A stretch of 64,000 nucleotides of DNA, from IMG/VR virus record IMGVR_UViG_3300034284_001183, positions 1 to 64,000 of that record; one strand, written 5' to 3'. Positions 16,142-62,363 of this stretch are shown one piece after another. Position 1 is the first letter of the stretch, and each line of letters starts with the position of its first letter. Source of the stretch: a virus. The position numbers and the translations under genes are program-made. Under the pieces are notes generated by a model. That model saw only the letters and a list, made by a program, of their open reading frames with translations. It ran no database searches and was not told the origin of the DNA.

Positions 16142-16152
16142 AGATATTTATA
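16142..16152 (+). promoter_or_regulatory. Candidate phage late promoter (AGATATTTATA)
   Basis: The motif GATATTTATA lies 14 bases before the ATG of the 75-residue gene and just after a terminator hairpin. The same core precedes other structural blocks in this window. No clear -35 element is visible. Assignment as a promoter is inference. Confidence 0.4.
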
Positions 16153-26072: not shown

Positions 26073-26083
26073 CGATATTTATT
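26073..26083 (+). promoter_or_regulatory. Candidate phage late promoter (CGATATTTATT)
   Basis: CGATATTTATT lies 11 bases before the ATG of the gp25-like gene, directly downstream of the nrdA terminator. The identical CGATATTTAT is found again before the fibre gene at 43410. A new transcript must begin here if the terminator is efficient, which supports the promoter reading. Confidence 0.5.
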
Positions 26084-26094
26084 TATAAAAGAAT

Positions 26095-43386: not shown

Positions 43387-43397
43387 CGATATTTATA
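43387..43397 (+). promoter_or_regulatory. Candidate phage late promoter (CGATATTTATA)
   Basis: CGATATTTATA sits 12 bases before the ATG of the 911-residue gene in a 36-base gap. It repeats the motif found before the gp25-like gene. No terminator precedes it, so it may add a second start inside a longer transcript. Confidence 0.45.
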
Positions 43398-51059: not shown

Positions 51060-51091
51060 TTTGTTTGTAAAAGAATAATTTCCTATATTTG
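51060..51091 (+). promoter_or_regulatory. Bacteroidetes-type promoter before the primase operon
   Basis: TTTG at 51060-51063 (with a second at 51064-51067) is followed by TATATTTG at 51084-51091. The TTG-to-TAnnTTTG spacing of 20 bases from the first copy fits the host consensus (-33 TTG, -7 TAnnTTTG). Transcription would start near 51096-51099, almost at the ATG at 51100. Confidence 0.7.
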
Positions 51092-51099
51092 TGGGAATT

Positions 51100-52062
51100 A
51101 TGGATTTACTAAATAACGAATTAGAAACAGATAAGCTAATTGATTTATTGGAATCCTTTTTAGGTGAGCCTAGAAAGCACTATAAACGTAAGAAGCAAAT
51201 TAGTTTTGACTGTCCAAACTGTTCCGCTATGAAAGGAATGGAGTTTGATAAAAAGGGTAATCTTGAGATTTCCTATAAAGACGGTGTGTATAACTGCTGG
51301 TCATGTGGTGAAACAGATGGTACCAAGGGTAGATTATCTTTTTTGTTTAAAACATACTCCGACAAAAAAACATTAGACCAATTTTATAAACTTAATTTTA
51401 AATTCATCCAACAAAAAACTGTTGAGGAGAAAAAAGATGAATTAAGGTTACCTGATGAGTATATACTACTTGATGGTAAGATAGGTAACTCCAGGTTTCA
51501 TGGTGCCTTTGATTATCTCTATACTAGAGGTTTAAACGATTCCCACATCAAAACATACAAAATAGGTTTTTGCCTGGAAGGCAAATATCAAAATCGTGTT
51601 GTTATACCATCCTATGATATTGACAATAAACTAAACTTTTTTGTAACAAGATCCATCAACCCAAAAACAACCAAGTTCAAATACTTGAACCCATCGGTTG
51701 AAAAACAGACATTAATTTTTAACGAAGCTTTAATTAACTGGGAAAAACCAGTGTTTTTAGTTGAGGGTGTTTTCGATCATATCGTTATACCTAATAGCAT
51801 TCCATTGCTTGGTAAAAAAATGTCTGAAAAATTATTTAAAGAATTATATTTTAAATCAAAAAATTTCATTATTATTGCACTCGATCCAGATGCTTGGAAT
51901 GATACCGTTGGAATATACAATAAATTAGATGCTGGCCGACTCTATAAAAAGGTGTTGGTTTTAACATTACCTAAAGGTATTGATATTTCATTGTACTATG
52001 AGAAGTATGGAAAAGAGTATTTAGGTAAATTATTACAAACAAGTAAAAGAATCAAAGAATGA
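51100..52062 (+). CDS. 61: DNA primase, T4 gp61 / DnaG-type (zinc finger plus TOPRIM)
   Basis: The 320-residue protein has a four-cysteine zinc site (C38-x2-C41 and C66-x2-C69, in CPNC and CWSC) for template recognition. The TOPRIM core follows, with E222 (FLVEGVFDH) and the D262-x-D264 pair (ALDPDAW). It makes RNA primers and should pair with the gp41-like helicase. I choose ATG 51100; an in-frame GTG at 51091 overlaps the promoter's -7 element and would lie before the expected transcript start. The mRNA may therefore be nearly leaderless. The end overlaps the next gene by 4 bases. Confidence 0.88.
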   Translation: MDLLNNELETDKLIDLLESFLGEPRKHYKRKKQISFDCPNCSAMKGMEFDKKGNLEISYKDGVYNCWSCGETDGTKGRLSFLFKTYSDKKTLDQFYKLNFKFIQQKTVEEKKDELRLPDEYILLDGKIGNSRFHGAFDYLYTRGLNDSHIKTYKIGFCLEGKYQNRVVIPSYDIDNKLNFFVTRSINPKTTKFKYLNPSVEKQTLIFNEALINWEKPVFLVEGVFDHIVIPNSIPLLGKKMSEKLFKELYFKSKNFIIIALDPDAWNDTVGIYNKLDAGRLYKKVLVLTLPKGIDISLYYEKYGKEYLGKLLQTSKRIKE

Positions 52063-52802
52063 TAACATTAGATCACGCAACCCACACGTACACTAACAGT
52101 GAAAAAACTACCGTTAAGTATACGTCAGTTACTACTGTATTGGGACAGTACAAAGAAAAGTTTAACGAAGATTACCACGCTGAAAGGGTGGCAAAGAGAA
52201 AAGGTGTAACCAAAGAAGAGGTTATTGCTGAATGGAGAGAAATTAACCGCATGGCTAATGAGTATGGAACCGCATTGCACGAAATCCTTGAAAGGTTTTT
52301 GTTAGCGCCTGGTAGAATGTACTCACCACGAGACGAATTTGAGAAAGTTGTGATTGGTGCATTTAGAGATGTTTGTTACGAAGAAGGTTTGGGTTTAATT
52401 GATAGTCCTTTTTTAAAACCAGAGCATATCATGTCGATTGAATTTAATGATGAGGAAGGTGTTGCTGGTACTTCAGATATTATTGAAGATTTACCAGGTG
52501 ATGCATTCTTTAATGTGTGGGATTTTAAGACAAACAAAAAGTTTGAATATGAAAACAAATATGGTGAATTCTTACACTTCCCATTAGATCATTTGGCTCA
52601 CTGCCAGTATAATGATTACACAATTCAATTATCGGTGTATGCTTTGATGTACGAGAAAGAAACTAGAAAAAAGTTTAATCGTGGTGGTTTGTTCTATTGG
52701 GATAAAAACATCCAAACTTTTAAAGTAATCCCAATCTGTTACATGAAAAAAGAAGCTGAAATGCTTATTCAACACTATAAAATGAAAAGACTTATATTAT
52801 GA
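52059..52802 (+). CDS. RecB-like PD-(D/E)XK nuclease
   Basis: The 247-residue protein has the RecB/Cas4-type nuclease order: H74 in EYGTALHEILERF, D140 in VAGTSDII, D155-x-K157 in VWDFKTNKK, and Q190 with Y194 in IQLSVYALMYE. These build a metal-dependent exonuclease site. There is no helicase part and no cysteine cluster of the Cas4 type. It sits between primase and the gp47-like nuclease with 4-base overlaps on both sides, so it is probably used in recombination or in host DNA breakdown. T4 has no direct equivalent at this place. Confidence 0.82.
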   Translation: MITLDHATHTYTNSEKTTVKYTSVTTVLGQYKEKFNEDYHAERVAKRKGVTKEEVIAEWREINRMANEYGTALHEILERFLLAPGRMYSPRDEFEKVVIGAFRDVCYEEGLGLIDSPFLKPEHIMSIEFNDEEGVAGTSDIIEDLPGDAFFNVWDFKTNKKFEYENKYGEFLHFPLDHLAHCQYNDYTIQLSVYALMYEKETRKKFNRGGLFYWDKNIQTFKVIPICYMKKEAEMLIQHYKMKRLIL

Positions 52803-53596
52803 TAGAAACAATTGCACACATAGCGGATATCCATTTTAGAAATATCCAAAGACACAACGAGTTCAGAGCGATTTGCGAAAACTTTTTTGATCAAATGAAA
52901 CGAATCAAACCAGAAAGAATTGTTATTGCTGGTGATATCGTACATTCAAGAAACCAAATTAGCCCAGAATTGGTTAGCGAAGTATCATGGTTCTTAAGTG
53001 GCTGTTCTAAGGTCACTGGTAAGGTTATTATCATTCCAGGTAACCATGACATCGTTGAGCAGAATAAAGAGCGTATGGACGCTCTGACACCCATCATTAA
53101 CGCTTTAGATGCTGATAACATTGTTTATTACACAAAATCAGCTTTATACCAAGACGAAAATGTTGTTTGGTCTGTGTTTAGTATCTTTGATAATCATATG
53201 GCGCCAGAAAGCTTGGAAATGAGACCATATAATGGCACTTACATCGGTTTGTACCACGGTACAATTGTTGGTGCTGTAAATGAACAAGGGTTTAAATTTA
53301 GCCATGGCGCTGAAGTAAACAAATTCAGACATTGTGACATGGTTCTTTGTGGTGATATTCATAAAAGACAAGTTTTTATGCATGATACCACACCAATCAT
53401 AATGGTTGGGTCGCTTATTCAGCAAAATTTTGGTGAAACGGTTAGCGAACACGGTTTTAATGTTGTTAAAATTCAAAATGATAAATTGTTATCATATGAG
53501 TTTTTTGATATTGAAAACCCTGTTAAGTATTTGACATTTAAAATAACCGATATGAGTGATATTGAAGAAAATAACGAGATTTTGGTAAATGCATAG
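52799..53596 (+). CDS. 47: Recombination nuclease subunit, T4 gp47 / SbcD / Mre11-like
   Basis: The 265-residue metallophosphoesterase has the family signatures in order: D10-x-H12 (IADIHF), G-D46 (VIAGDIVHS), G-N82-H83-D84 (IPGNHDIVE), a YHG near residue 155 and a CGDIHKRQ near 185. It forms a complex with the gp46/SbcC ATPase that resects DNA ends for recombination-dependent replication. It is shorter than T4 gp47 (~340), lacking much of the C-terminal capping region. It overlaps both the nuclease before and the linker gene after by a few bases. Confidence 0.9.
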   Translation: MIETIAHIADIHFRNIQRHNEFRAICENFFDQMKRIKPERIVIAGDIVHSRNQISPELVSEVSWFLSGCSKVTGKVIIIPGNHDIVEQNKERMDALTPIINALDADNIVYYTKSALYQDENVVWSVFSIFDNHMAPESLEMRPYNGTYIGLYHGTIVGAVNEQGFKFSHGAEVNKFRHCDMVLCGDIHKRQVFMHDTTPIIMVGSLIQQNFGETVSEHGFNVVKIQNDKLLSYEFFDIENPVKYLTFKITDMSDIEENNEILVNA

Positions 53597-54017
53597 TGTT
53601 AATATAGAAAAATCTTTACATGAGGATATAGTTGACTTTTGTAAGGTAAATCAAATAACTGATGTAGATGATTTTATAAACAAAACACTTAGAAAAGGTT
53701 TTGATTTAAAAAAATATGGTGAATCGTTTGCGATGTTTTTTAACAAGACTGAAGCTGATATGATCTTTAATGGACCACCTGTTGAAGAAGCACCTGTTGT
53801 AGAACCAGAAGTTGTCACTGAACAACCAAAGAAAAAAGGTGGTAGAAAGAAAAAGGTTGAGGAACCTATTGTTGAAAAAGAACCAGAAGTTGTCACTGAA
53901 CAACCAAAGGAACCAACCTATGAGGTTAAACAAGAAGAACCAAAACCAGTAAAAAAACCAATAACATTAATCAAGAAACAACCAAGAGATAATTATGACG
54001 TATATGACGAAATCTAA
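53589..54017 (+). CDS. Linker protein between gp47 and gp46, with N-terminal RHH-like helix and charged repeats
   Basis: The 142-residue product starts MHSVNIEKSLHEDIVDFCKV and goes on with DDFINKTLRKGFDLKKYG; this short strand-helix-helix pattern is reminiscent of ribbon-helix-helix DNA-binding proteins. The second half is disordered, with two copies of an EPEVVTEQPK unit 26 residues apart flanking a GGRKKK patch that could touch DNA. It overlaps gp47 by 8 bases and gp46 by 23 bases, so it is made together with them. I infer an accessory of the Mre11-Rad50-like complex; the family is not recognised. Confidence 0.65.
   Translation: MHSVNIEKSLHEDIVDFCKVNQITDVDDFINKTLRKGFDLKKYGESFAMFFNKTEADMIFNGPPVEEAPVVEPEVVTEQPKKKGGRKKKVEEPIVEKEPEVVTEQPKEPTYEVKQEEPKPVKKPITLIKKQPRDNYDVYDEI
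53802..53909 (+). repeat. Two identical 30-bp direct repeats, 78-bp period
   Basis: Bases 53802-53831 and 53880-53909 are identical over 30 bases and both encode EPEVVTEQPK in frame. Full identity at third codon positions indicates a recent duplication or gene conversion. Confidence 0.9.
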
Positions 54018-56376
54018 AATAGAGTCAGCTGACTTGTACGATAGCAATAACCATATTAAGGTTATGTGGGAAGATACGTTGGATAACCATTCAACGCATA
54101 AGGAAAAGCAAATTGAAAAATACTTTCAAAATAAATATAAAACCACAAAAGTTAAGGTAATCTTTAAACCAATATCAATAAAAAATAGTGATGTTGTTGC
54201 CGAAGGAACTGCTGATGCTTCTGAAATTATTTTGGACGAAAACTACCAAAAACAATTAATAGAAAGTTATTTAAAAGATCAAAACGTTGACGTTCCGATT
54301 GATTATTTAATGAAGCTTGATAATTCGGTAAATGTTGAGTTAGAGGATTATAAGGAACAAACAAATAGGTATAAAAAATTCAAAATTAAACAAATTCAGT
54401 TTTCAAATTTCTTATCATTTGGTGAGGATAACAGAATTGATTTTACTGATAAATTGGGTATTACATCTGTTGTATCAAACCCAGCTAATTTTGGCGGTAA
54501 AACAACAATGACGGTTGACTTATTATTATTCTTATTCTTCGGTGTTACATCAAAGACTGATAAGATGGAAGATGTGTTTAACCGATTCAGTGATGAGGAT
54601 AATGTTAGTGTTAAAGGTATGGTTGAAATCGAAGGTGATAACTACATCATCAGTAGAAAAATCAACAGAAAACAAGGTAGAAATGGCGAGTATACTTGTA
54701 AAAGCGAATTAGATTTCTATCAGGTATTACCAAAAGGTGGTGTTAAACAATTAAATGGTGAACAAAGAAAGTTTACTGATGATTTGATTAAGACTTACGT
54801 TGGTTCATATGAGGACTTCTTAATTACCATCTTAACAACTGGTGATAACTTGGATGATTTAATTAAAACAAAACCAACTGAGCGTGGTAGAATCTTAACC
54901 AAATTTATTGGATTGGAATTTTTTAGAGAGAAAGAAAAAATTGCTAAGAAAAAACACCAGGAGTGGAAAGAAAAATCTAAATTGTACCATAACAACTCAC
55001 AAGAGATTTTTGTTAAGATTGAAGTGGAGAATGATAAGATTAAAAATAACAAAGAATTTATAGACAGTTTAAATATTAGTCTTAAAGCCAAGGTTGATTT
55101 GTTAAAATCTTTTGATGAGGAAAGGGATGAATTAAATAAAATCCGTGTTAATGTTGATACTGAATTGTACAAATTAAATGAGGATGATATTGTGTCTGGT
55201 ATTAATAAACTTAAAGGTTTTGTCAAAACAAAGACAGAGGAGATCGAGCAATTAAAAAAGGATAATCCAATGCCTAATGAACAATTTGATGTTGATGCGT
55301 ATGCAACAGCTGTTTCAAACATTCGTGATGCCAGGGAAAAAGAAGTTGAGTTGAGGGTTGAGATTTCTGGTATTGAAAAAACAATCAGAATGCTTGAGGA
55401 TGGTGAAATTTGCCAATCTTGCCAAAGACCGTTGGAAGGTATTGACCACAAAAAAGAAATTGCTGAAAACAATAAAAAGTTAAAAACTAAAACCACTGCA
55501 CATAAAAAAGCAACGACAAGTATAGAAGAGTTGTCTGCTAAGATAGAAAGTTACGATACCATTAAAACTTTGTGGGATGCTTACAATAAAGCTGAATTGT
55601 TGTTGCAAAACAAACAAATGGAGTTAACTAACTATAACGGTAGTTTAGAGCGTGGTGAAGAAAAGTTAAAATCTTATGGTTTGGCAAAAGAAGCTTTGGA
55701 AAAAAACAAAATAATTGATACCGATTTACAAAGATTGAAGTTCAAAGTTGAAAATGAGACAAACGAGAAAGAAGGATTGATGTTACAAATCAACGGTTTT
55801 AAAAAGGATATTGAATTATCTGAAACCAAAATTGGTGAGTACAATAATTTAATAACTGAGCTTAAACGTGAAGAGGTTGTTGATAAAATTTTCAGGGTTT
55901 ATTTAGATGTATATGGTAAAAACGGTATCTCTAAGATGGTATTAAGCACCATGATTCCGTTAATCAATAGCCACTTGAAAATTCTTTTATCGGATACTTG
56001 TGATTTTGATCTTGAAATGCGCATTAACGATAAGAACGAGATTGAGTTCTGGATGATTGATTGTGAAAGTGGTATTGAAAAACCATTAGCATCTGGCTCT
56101 GGTTATGAGAAAACCGTTAGTTCATTAGCGTTAAGATGCGTATTGAGTAAAGTATGTTCATTACCTAAACCAAATATCATCATATTTGATGAGGTTACTG
56201 GTAAAGTATCTAACGATAACTTGGATAGATTGGGTATGTTCTTCGAGAAATTAAAAACGTTATTTGAACACATTTGGGTGATTAGTCACAACCCATATGT
56301 ACAAGATTGGGCTGATAATATTGTAAGGGTAGAAAAAACAGATAACATCTCAAAAGTAGTTGATGCAAATGGTTAG
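53995..56376 (+). CDS. 46: Recombination ATPase, T4 gp46 / SbcC / Rad50-like
   Basis: The 793-residue protein has the Rad50 plan. An unusual ~130-residue extension comes first. The ATPase head then starts (KIKQIQFSNFLSFGEDNRIDF) with a degenerate Walker A, PANFGGKT at residues 163-170, where the first glycine is replaced by proline. Two long coiled-coil arms flank a zinc hook, C473-QS-C476 (EICQSCQRPL). The C-terminal head has a signature-like ASGSGYEKTVSSLALR and Walker B at D732-E733 (IIIFDEVTGK). It acts with gp47 in end resection. It overlaps the linker gene by 23 bases and the next gene by 8. Confidence 0.9.
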   Translation: MTYMTKSKIESADLYDSNNHIKVMWEDTLDNHSTHKEKQIEKYFQNKYKTTKVKVIFKPISIKNSDVVAEGTADASEIILDENYQKQLIESYLKDQNVDVPIDYLMKLDNSVNVELEDYKEQTNRYKKFKIKQIQFSNFLSFGEDNRIDFTDKLGITSVVSNPANFGGKTTMTVDLLLFLFFGVTSKTDKMEDVFNRFSDEDNVSVKGMVEIEGDNYIISRKINRKQGRNGEYTCKSELDFYQVLPKGGVKQLNGEQRKFTDDLIKTYVGSYEDFLITILTTGDNLDDLIKTKPTERGRILTKFIGLEFFREKEKIAKKKHQEWKEKSKLYHNNSQEIFVKIEVENDKIKNNKEFIDSLNISLKAKVDLLKSFDEERDELNKIRVNVDTELYKLNEDDIVSGINKLKGFVKTKTEEIEQLKKDNPMPNEQFDVDAYATAVSNIRDAREKEVELRVEISGIEKTIRMLEDGEICQSCQRPLEGIDHKKEIAENNKKLKTKTTAHKKATTSIEELSAKIESYDTIKTLWDAYNKAELLLQNKQMELTNYNGSLERGEEKLKSYGLAKEALEKNKIIDTDLQRLKFKVENETNEKEGLMLQINGFKKDIELSETKIGEYNNLITELKREEVVDKIFRVYLDVYGKNGISKMVLSTMIPLINSHLKILLSDTCDFDLEMRINDKNEIEFWMIDCESGIEKPLASGSGYEKTVSSLALRCVLSKVCSLPKPNIIIFDEVTGKVSNDNLDRLGMFFEKLKTLFEHIWVISHNPYVQDWADNIVRVEKTDNISKVVDANG

Positions 56377-56995
56377 AATATTAGATTGGATAGTTTTTAA
56401 AATAAAATATGAAACCTATTTGTTTTTTAACAAAATATTTAGTAAAAAACCTAGAAAGTATATCATGTTTTTTGTTGGAAAATATCCTGATAACTTTAAG
56501 CACGGACTAAAACCAATATTAGATAATGAGCACCAGTTGAAATGGATTTTTGGCCCAGCTTCAATCATACTGATCTTTAACTCAAAAGAAAATATGAAGT
56601 TTCTGGATAAGTTTTTTAAGAAGATGTATTCGGAGTATACAGAATCATTCTTTTTATTTGACATAACAAAAGAAAAGTATTCAAAGCATGTTACAGATGA
56701 ATATTATAAACACTTGTACATGGAAGGGCCTAAAAGACATAACGAGCTAACATTAAATAAAATACAATATTTTGTTGATTTGGTGGCAAAAGCAAGGGAA
56801 CAATATATCGCTTTATTAGAAGAGGAGATAAAAAACGCAACCGAAAAAAGAGATAGAGGTAAAGAGGTAAGAATTAGTATGGATATTATTGATCCAATTT
56901 TGGATAAAATAATTGAATACGGATATGAAAGTTTAACAGAAGAGGAGAAATTAATTTTAAAACGCTATAATACAGACAATGACACAGAGAATTGA
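56369..56995 (+). CDS. Small protein with DUF6576-like C-terminus, unknown
   Basis: I use ATG 56369 (two alternative starts lie at 56360 and 56363). The 208-residue protein has a basic, aromatic N-terminus (WIVFKIKYETYLFFNKIF) that could lie on a membrane or protein surface, then a mixed region and a charged helix. Its end, PILDKIIEYGYESLTEEEKL, strongly recalls the DUF6576 motif that I know from the C-termini of Bacteroidetes rhomboid-family proteins. It overlaps gp46 by 8 bases and the sigma gene by 17. In T4, gene 55 and the 46/47 genes are also near each other. A partner of the sigma factor is a possible reading, but only from position. Confidence 0.6.
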   Translation: MVRILDWIVFKIKYETYLFFNKIFSKKPRKYIMFFVGKYPDNFKHGLKPILDNEHQLKWIFGPASIILIFNSKENMKFLDKFFKKMYSEYTESFFLFDITKEKYSKHVTDEYYKHLYMEGPKRHNELTLNKIQYFVDLVAKAREQYIALLEEEIKNATEKRDRGKEVRISMDIIDPILDKIIEYGYESLTEEEKLILKRYNTDNDTEN

Positions 56996-57785
56996 CACAT
57001 CACACTGGATCGATCAAAGAGAGATCGCAAATTACTTACAAGATGTAAGAAAACATGAACCCCTTACCCGACTTGAGGAACGTGAGTTGCTTAAAGAAAT
57101 TAAAGCTGGGGATAGTAAAGCAAAAGAAAAATTGATTTACTCAAACCTTAGATATGTCATTACTGTAGCGAAACAATATCAGGGTCAAGGTGTAAATTTT
57201 GAGGATTTAATATCTGAGGGTAACCTTGGTTTATTAAAAGCAGCCGAGAGGTTTAATTACGAACAGGAAGAGGTTAGATTCCTATCCTATGCTGTTTGGT
57301 GGATTAAACAATCAATCATTCAATCGTTACATGATAATTCAAGAATGATTAGATTACCAATTAACGTAATTAATGATGTTCGTAAAGCCAACAAAGAAGC
57401 ACAAAAGAATTTTGCTTCCATGACTGAGAACAGTGTTATTAACGGGTTCTCAAATTTACCATCAGTTGAAAGACTTGATGACAAATATGATGATGAAGGT
57501 TTATCTTTATACGATATTTACGAAGATAAATCATCACCAAGACCAGATGAGGCTTATGATAGTGACAGGGTTAATTTAGTTAACGCCTTAAATAACGTTT
57601 TAAATAATCTAACAGAAACAGAAAAACTTGTTATTGTTAGATATTTTGGTTTGGACGGTAATGAATGTACACTACAAGAAATATCTGAAGATTTGGAGCT
57701 AACAAAAGAGCGTGTTAGACAAATTAAAGAGAAAGCAATTAAGAAACTTAGATTTTATTCTGGGGGAATCTTTAATTTATTGTAA
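56979..57785 (+). CDS. Phage RNA polymerase sigma factor, sigma-70 family (Bacteroidetes primary-sigma-like)
   Basis: The 268-residue protein is a full sigma factor: region 1.2 (REIANYLQDVRKHEPLTRLE), region 2 with core-binding and melting parts (NLRYVITVAKQYQGQGVNFE; RFLSYAVWWIKQSIIQSLHD), a shortened region 3, and region 4 (LTETEKLVIVRYFGL; CTLQEISEDLELTKERVRQI). It resembles the short primary sigma of Bacteroidetes more than T4 gp55, which lacks most of region 4. It should direct host polymerase to phage promoters. It is the last gene of the operon that begins at the host-type promoter near 51060. Region 2.4 differs from the usual host ALAEQSR (here SLHDNSR). Confidence 0.92.
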   Translation: MTQRIDTSHWIDQREIANYLQDVRKHEPLTRLEERELLKEIKAGDSKAKEKLIYSNLRYVITVAKQYQGQGVNFEDLISEGNLGLLKAAERFNYEQEEVRFLSYAVWWIKQSIIQSLHDNSRMIRLPINVINDVRKANKEAQKNFASMTENSVINGFSNLPSVERLDDKYDDEGLSLYDIYEDKSSPRPDEAYDSDRVNLVNALNNVLNNLTETEKLVIVRYFGLDGNECTLQEISEDLELTKERVRQIKEKAIKKLRFYSGGIFNLL

Positions 57786-57800
57786 TTTTAATTAAAAACT

Positions 57801-57811
57801 AAATATTTATA
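57801..57811 (+). promoter_or_regulatory. Candidate phage promoter (AAATATTTATA)
   Basis: AAATATTTATA lies just before the ATG at 57815, and TTG occurs about 19 bases upstream of its core. The arrangement resembles the other ATATTTAT sites. The distance to the ATG is very short, so a leader of only a few bases is implied. Confidence 0.35.
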
Positions 57812-57814
57812 AGT

Positions 57815-58108
57815 ATGAACAAAATCGAACAAATTTTGAACAAACATTTTACCAAGATAGTCTTGGTTATGTTAGTATTACTATTCATGAGAACATGTAA
57901 TAGCGATGTAAGGAGTCTGAATAAAAGAATTGACAAGATGTCTAACAAAGTAGATTCGTTGGAAATGATGATAATCACACACGAAGATTTAAGACTTGAA
58001 GGTCTTAGAACCGAAAAACGTATGATCCAATCAACCGATAGAAAAATGTTAGATGTTACCAGACAAGCTGAAATCGATAAAGAAATAAACGCTTTGGAAA
58101 ACAAATAA
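57815..58108 (+). CDS. Small membrane-anchored coiled-coil protein, unknown
   Basis: The 97-residue protein has one membrane segment (residues ~13-27, FTKIVLVMLVLLFMR) and then a charged, heptad-like helix (DVRSLNKRIDKMSNKVDSLE). It is not cleaved by an obvious signal peptidase site. A periplasmic or cytoplasmic coiled coil tethered to the inner membrane would fit. It stands first after the sigma operon and before the ArdC-like gene. Roles in superinfection exclusion or lysis control are possible, but nothing in the sequence decides. Confidence 0.6.
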   Translation: MNKIEQILNKHFTKIVLVMLVLLFMRTCNSDVRSLNKRIDKMSNKVDSLEMMIITHEDLRLEGLRTEKRMIQSTDRKMLDVTRQAEIDKEINALENK

Positions 58109-62354: not shown

Positions 62355-62363
62355 CTATTTATA
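62355..62363 (+). promoter_or_regulatory. Candidate phage promoter (CTATTTATA)
   Basis: CTATTTATA in the 41-base gap before the ATG at 62379 has the TATTTAT core, with TTG about 20 bases upstream. It is the weakest match of the group because the leading ATA is missing. Confidence 0.3.

Follow-up and report, generated by a model that had tools for sequence, protein, structure and literature searches.

In group 2 jumbo phages, some of which infect Bacteroidetes, Iyer et al. (2021, PMC7824862) described two kinds of phage-encoded sigma factors: a minimal type, and an RpoD-like type that probably came from cells. In the T4 late system, which relies on gp55, gp33 and gp45, the promoter consists of a −10 element only (PMC2988020, PMC7892883). 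On the host side, flavobacterial sigma-A is known to use TAnnTTTG as its −7 box, at −12 to −5 (PMC9723704).

Here we analyse a stretch of 64,000 nucleotides of viral DNA (the window). It belongs to a virus record of 72,895 bases which is 99.999% identical over its full length to a stretch of G001, a 165,848-base contig from which the genome-wide counts for this phage are taken. T4-like genes in the window comprise gp25, gp6, a gp53-like gene, UvsX, gp41, NrdA/B, gp61 and gp46/gp47; G001 encodes a family B DNA polymerase outside the window. The window's phage is a large T4-like phage, probably of a Bacteroidota host, the host assignment being drawn from promoter type and sigma ancestry.

The locus resembles the group 2 jumbo phages in its T4-like background, its near-complete RpoD-type sigma and the existence of a second, minimal sigma type in the group (PMC7824862). 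It differs in that both sigma types are found in the same genomes, for which an operon, two promoter classes and a late motif are also defined, and in that gp33 was not found. Since RpoD-like sigmas in such phages have already been reported, the additions are a putative division of work between two sigmas, a motif with a −10 element only, and the modified form of the RpoD-like sigma, namely a short region 3.1, the substitution R584K and an invariant LF tail. The reading we favour, and hold to be fairly probable, is that the phage owns a primary-type sigma derived from Bacteroidota, which serves host-type promoters, and that a separate gp55-type late sigma acts at −10-only TATTTATA promoters.

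A search for relatives of the RpoD-like sigma returned 215 stretches in viral contigs, of which 80 were kept for comparison. The contigs are uncultured and possibly incomplete, and gene starts were called mechanically.

The replication operon and its closing gene

The first-pass annotation had described a seven-gene unit running from primase to a sigma factor, with small overlaps, no terminator between the genes and a host-type promoter in front. This layout, computed directly, was borne out (Table 1). Successive genes overlap by 4, 4, 8, 23, 17 and 17 bases, terminator-like matches on the + strand occur only inside coding sequence, and both promoter boxes are present before primase. Primase most likely starts at ATG 51100; the alternative GTG at 51091 is disfavoured because it includes the final base of the −7 box.

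Table 1. Coordinates of genes and promoters in the window
Feature	Position	Strand	Evidence
TATTTATA before ORF 16167	16145..16152	+	
TATTTATA before gp25-like baseplate gene 26095; overlaps ATATTTAT at 26075	26080..26087	+	
TATTTATA before ORF 43410, where a new unit begins (presumed structural region)	43390..43397	+	
Host-type promoter: −33 TTTG (51060-51063), N20, −7 TATATTTG (51084-51091)	51060..51091	+	
DNA primase (gp61-like)	51100..52062	+	phrog_47 E 2.8e-40
RecB-like PD-(D/E)XK exonuclease	52059..52802	+	phrog_298 E 3e-23, PF12705
gp47 (SbcD-like)	52799..53596	+	phrog_100 E 1e-25
Linker gene	53589..54017	+	ORF, no family match; similar ORF in 63/79 loci
gp46 (SbcC-like)	53995..56376	+	phrog_77 E 6.4e-49
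DUF6576-ended protein overlapping sigma start	56360..56995	+	PF20216 E 2.2e-6; similar ORF in 48/79 loci
RpoD-like sigma, 268 aa, regions 1.2-2.4 and 4, short 3.1, IFNLL C-terminal tail	56979..57785	+	PF04542, PF04545, phrog_351 E 4.9e-56
TATTTATA late-type promoter directly past sigma stop	57804..57811	+	
Putative membrane protein, 97 aa, first gene past late-type site	57815..58108	+	
TATTTATA before ORF 62379	62356..62363	+	

The association of the sigma with recombination and replication genes is widely kept. Within 10 kb upstream of it, gp46 is found in 78 of 79 loci, gp47 in 68 and primase in 54, some of the gaps being due to truncated contigs. The gene directly upstream of sigma is more variable: in L020, L025 and L026, a DNA methyltransferase-like gene takes the place of the DUF6576-type neighbour. 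The idea that this neighbour is an obligate anti-sigma was dropped, as the methyltransferase-like gene or another ORF stands there in some relatives.

Promoter placement around the sigma gene was followed in 57 distinct loci. None has TATTTAT before sigma and two have a boxed host-type site there. Past the stop codon, TATTTAT occurs within 25 nt in 30 loci, and 15 of the remaining 27 carry a host-type −7 box within about 45 nt. Sigma thus usually closes its unit. A strong promoter immediately before sigma would have made the operon layout irrelevant; in the window, neither promoter class is present within the 160 nt upstream.

Two classes of promoters

Matches to the pattern TTTG-N20-TATATTTG number six in the window against 3.2 expected by chance. 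Such a match means little by itself; what lends it weight is that it stands in front of an ORF, that it recurs at primase in related loci and that a −33 box is found at TAnnTTTG sites genome-wide. In the clade of the window (L002-L018), a host-type promoter is found at the primase start in 12 of the 13 distinct loci; with the near-identical L002 left out, the count is 11 of 12. Across five genomes, the alignment of 92 TAnnTTTG sites reveals TTTG(G) at −24 to −20, which corresponds to the spacing of the Bacteroidota −33 box. By direct count, this box accompanies 54 of 101 TAnnTTTG sites versus 27 of 278 TATTTAT sites (P = 3e-18). A scan for E. coli-type sigma-70 promoters gave fewer matches than in shuffled sequences, this consensus being uninformative for Bacteroidota.

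Many of the host-type −7 boxes are located 12-16 nt before the start codon (window 51084-51100, and sites in G001 and G017). Since flavobacterial transcription starts about 12 nt after the first T of the box, one would expect many early transcripts to lack a leader or to have only a very short one.

The second class had been noticed in the first-pass annotation as a different motif preceding structural blocks, and ATATTTAT/TATTTATA is indeed strongly enriched just upstream of genes. In each of the five genomes analysed, no 7-mer is more enriched there than TATTTAT; G001 has it in 30 upstream regions compared with 4.5 expected. Over the whole window ATATTTAT/TATTTATA is not enriched (TATTTATA is seen 15 times, with 17.6 expected), and upstream of genes there is a sense bias of 156 TATTTATA versus 53 TATAAATA. 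As the enrichment lies upstream of genes and favours the sense orientation while whole-window counts stay at chance, we reject the reading of TATTTATA as mere AT-richness. No upstream element emerged from 253 aligned TATTTAT sites of the five genomes. The two classes are also separated by gene: in G001, 28 genes have late-type sites only and 13 boxed host-type sites, with no gene carrying both.

In motif and in position before virion genes, these −10-only sites agree with the late promoters of T4; TATTTATA and TATAAATA are identical at 6 of 8 positions (PMC2988020, PMC7892883). A literature search for TATTTATA as a phage promoter returned nothing relevant, which is weak evidence of novelty given that subscription journals were mostly outside its reach.

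The late motif can also be followed in a cultured phage. The complete genome of Flavobacterium phage vB_FspM_immuto (L296-L299), a distant relative, shares with the window's phage a gp55-type sigma (gp118, E 1e-24), a similar primase-exonuclease order and TATTTATA before virion genes. It differs by the lack of an RpoD-like sigma, for which no match was obtained in its genome at E ≤ 10, and by its early motif, GTTGC...TATATTTAGG instead of TTTG...TAnnTTTG. Dividing immuto by genome region rather than per gene, TATTTATA occurs in 15 of 26 upstream stretches in structural regions versus 7 of 66 elsewhere (P = 7e-6), a separation which was computed directly. Genes with the motif upstream include those for tail sheath, tail tube, tape measure and portal. 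Two uncultured, fragmentary genomes, G027 and G029, likewise carry a gp55-type protein and the late motif, and no RpoD-like sigma was found in these possibly incomplete contigs. The late motif thus does not need an RpoD-like sigma. The early promoter class of immuto consists of approximately GTTGC, a spacer of about 20 and TATATTTAGGTATCAATAATTAAA, with almost no TAnnTTTG.

Two sigma factors in the same genomes

The sigma closing the operon had been called a complete sigma of the host primary type. Its host type is upheld: profiles recognise sigma-70 regions 2 and 4 (PF04542, E 4e-16; PF04545, E 4e-14), and its best phage family is phrog_351 and not phrog_234. It is not a reduced, gp55-like protein with a gp55-type region 2 only, as it possesses RpoD-type regions 2 and 4. 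Completeness could not be sustained: region 3 is some 20 residues shorter than in hosts, spanning mostly 65-72 residues in phage sigmas versus 85, and identity in region 3.1 falls to 0.11. Because region 3 is not intact, the protein is classed, by its sequence, as RpoD-derived rather than as a complete RpoD.

When about 85,000 species genomes were compared, the best 80 of 593 matches were RpoD-type proteins, almost all of them from Bacteroidota. A phylogeny, which the first-pass annotation had proposed as a check, places all 41 phage proteins in one clade (support 0.999), sister to the Bacteroidota-type RpoD, pointing to a single old acquisition by phages. Identity with Bacteroidota sigma-A/RpoD amounts to about 40-46%. 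In E. coli numbering, the promoter-reading residues W433, W434, Q437, E585, R588 and Q589 match the hosts in all 41 phage sigmas; for Q441 and N455, which are specific to Bacteroidota, this holds in 40. The exceptions are R584, which is replaced by K in all 41 phage proteins and in none of 33 hosts, R436, which is K in 37, and G458, which is N or Q in 37. Besides R584K, the shorter region 3 and another C-terminal tail distinguish the phage proteins from Bacteroidota RpoD.

R584K, the short region 3.1 and the different tail may have shifted the specificity of the protein. One could consider that it reads a middle subset of TAnnTTTG promoters, with an altered −33 or spacer preference, which host RpoD reads poorly. 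The three substitutions and the shortened region 3.1 are in line with such a role, as is the position of the gene in an operon with replication genes. Against it, the TAnnTTTG sites were treated as one class in our analysis, and G029 shows the boxed class at 10 of 15 sites in the absence of a detected RpoD-like sigma. We regard this middle class as unlikely. As no promoter class readable only by the RpoD-like sigma was found, the assignment of its targets to the host-type promoters rests on residue conservation.

The second sigma factor is a protein of 237 aa (G001:161270-161983) with orthologs of 230-270 aa. Of the 24 contigs with an RpoD-like sigma that were searched, 14 gave phrog_234 matches (best E 4.6e-5). 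When 14 orthologs were aligned with three known gp55 proteins, hhalign returned an E of 8.7e-5 and a probability of 60% over region 2. In a PDB profile search, T4 gp55 was the sole sigma among the matches (E 0.32). The predicted structure, of low confidence (pTM 0.40), combines a helical segment resembling region 2 with a helical C-terminal segment. Almost all top Foldseek matches of this model are sigma factors, although every match has E > 0.7 and none is significant. The relationship to gp55 is remote, and its assignment rests mainly on profile comparison and on recurrence across genomes. The protein occurs in 15 of the 24 contigs and in 15 of the 16 longest ones (at least 142 kb), that of the window included; this co-occurrence was computed directly. 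Its neighbourhood (PhoH, three genes without assigned function, the gp55-type gene and further genes) is kept in 15 of 15 genomes. Compared with T4, the putative late sigma is homologous to gp55 over region 2 and bears an extra C-terminal helical domain, a gp33 and a gp45-type clamp are undetected, and the RpoD-like sigma comes in addition.

Within this block, a conserved gene adjoining PhoH (L119:18749-19384 and orthologs, alignment A4) has a HAD/nucleotidase-like start, IGIxINGVLRD, with altered catalytic Asp positions; its product is possibly an inactive enzyme with another role. This 211-aa gene had been entertained as a clamp, a suggestion dropped in view of its degenerate HAD/nucleotidase-like N-terminus.

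The C-terminal tail of the RpoD-like sigma deserves separate mention. All phage RpoD-like sigmas have an [LI]F tail (window 57768-57782), which is missing from all 80 host RpoD compared, whose C-termini are mostly LK-x-YLG-like; F265 is invariant in 26 phage sigmas. The C-terminal clamp motifs of T4 gp55 and gp33 are hydrophobic-acidic (PMC2988020), so that the phage-specific [LI]F-x-hydrophobic tail might be imagined to dock on a clamp or partner, making the protein a one-chain relative of the split gp55/gp33 which couples transcription to replication. Several results speak against this docking, which we consider very improbable. Profile searches recognised neither a gp45-type nor a bacterial beta sliding clamp in G001 and its relatives. 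The motif is absent from DNA polymerase C-termini in the window's group; three of five genomes have no other protein with it and the other two one dissimilar stray match each. The tail is perhaps just a shortened sigma-4 end. Searches for T4-like gp33 and gp45 (phrog_254, phrog_223, PF02916) likewise gave no acceptable match, although highly diverged versions could be missed, and the phrog_168 clamp-loader match in G001 proved to be PhoH. The sliding-clamp idea thus found no support in DNA polymerase C-termini or in the gp45, beta-clamp and gp33 searches. A review of T4 asks why there is no fused late sigma (PMC2988020), and T4 workers have remarked that none was known from nature. That the phage protein is such a natural one-chain sigma, its LF tail docked to a sliding clamp or to some other replication protein, and combines −10/−33 reading with replication coupling, seems to us extremely improbable.

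No C-terminal sliding clamp-binding motif was found in the gp55-type protein either, the C-termini of which differ among orthologs. Phages of the G001 type may use the host clamp. With gp45 clamp and gp33 not found, late transcription need not run as in T4.

A proposed division of labour

We infer the functions of both sigmas and promoters from sequence, including the pairing of sigma with promoter class, the timing, core binding and the benefit of an extra sigma. Host RNA polymerase with host RpoD would read TTTG-N19/20-TAnnTTTG promoters and transcribe the early units, including the one that extends from primase through gp47 and gp46 to sigma. The phage RpoD-like sigma would then bind the host core and most likely go on reading the same host-type (early/middle) promoters. 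The phage would thereby have a primary sigma of its own to draw on when host RpoD runs short or is displaced. The protein may prolong early/middle transcription, stand in for a disabled host RpoD or prefer some of these promoters. Late units, mainly for virion proteins, would start at the −10-only TATTTATA promoters, which are most likely read by the separate gp55-type sigma.

The first-pass annotation had read the same operon otherwise. From a host-type promoter opening the unit and a host-type sigma closing it, a layout that stands, it proposed that the full-length sigma, made early, reads ATATTTAT/TATTTATA and brings about the early-to-late switch instead of gp55. The terminal position of the gene, the TATTTAT sites which often follow its stop codon and the universal R584K, which could alter −33 reading, are all compatible with that proposal. 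Our results nevertheless do not bear out the switch role, which we consider improbable: a gp55-type sigma is present in the same genomes, TATTTATA lacks the −33 box, an element which the RpoD-like sigma is fitted to recognise, the region 2.4 residues remain host-like, and immuto, G027 and G029 have the motif and a gp55-type protein with no RpoD-like sigma found.

The division between a primary-type and a gp55-type sigma corrects the tempting reading of a full host-like sigma in place of gp55. It suggests how transcription may be shared out between two phage sigmas in a large clade of T4-like Bacteroidota phages, most of them uncultured. For annotation of this clade, TATTTATA without a −33 box provides an explicit late-promoter consensus, and the cultured immuto offers a phage in which half of the model would be testable.
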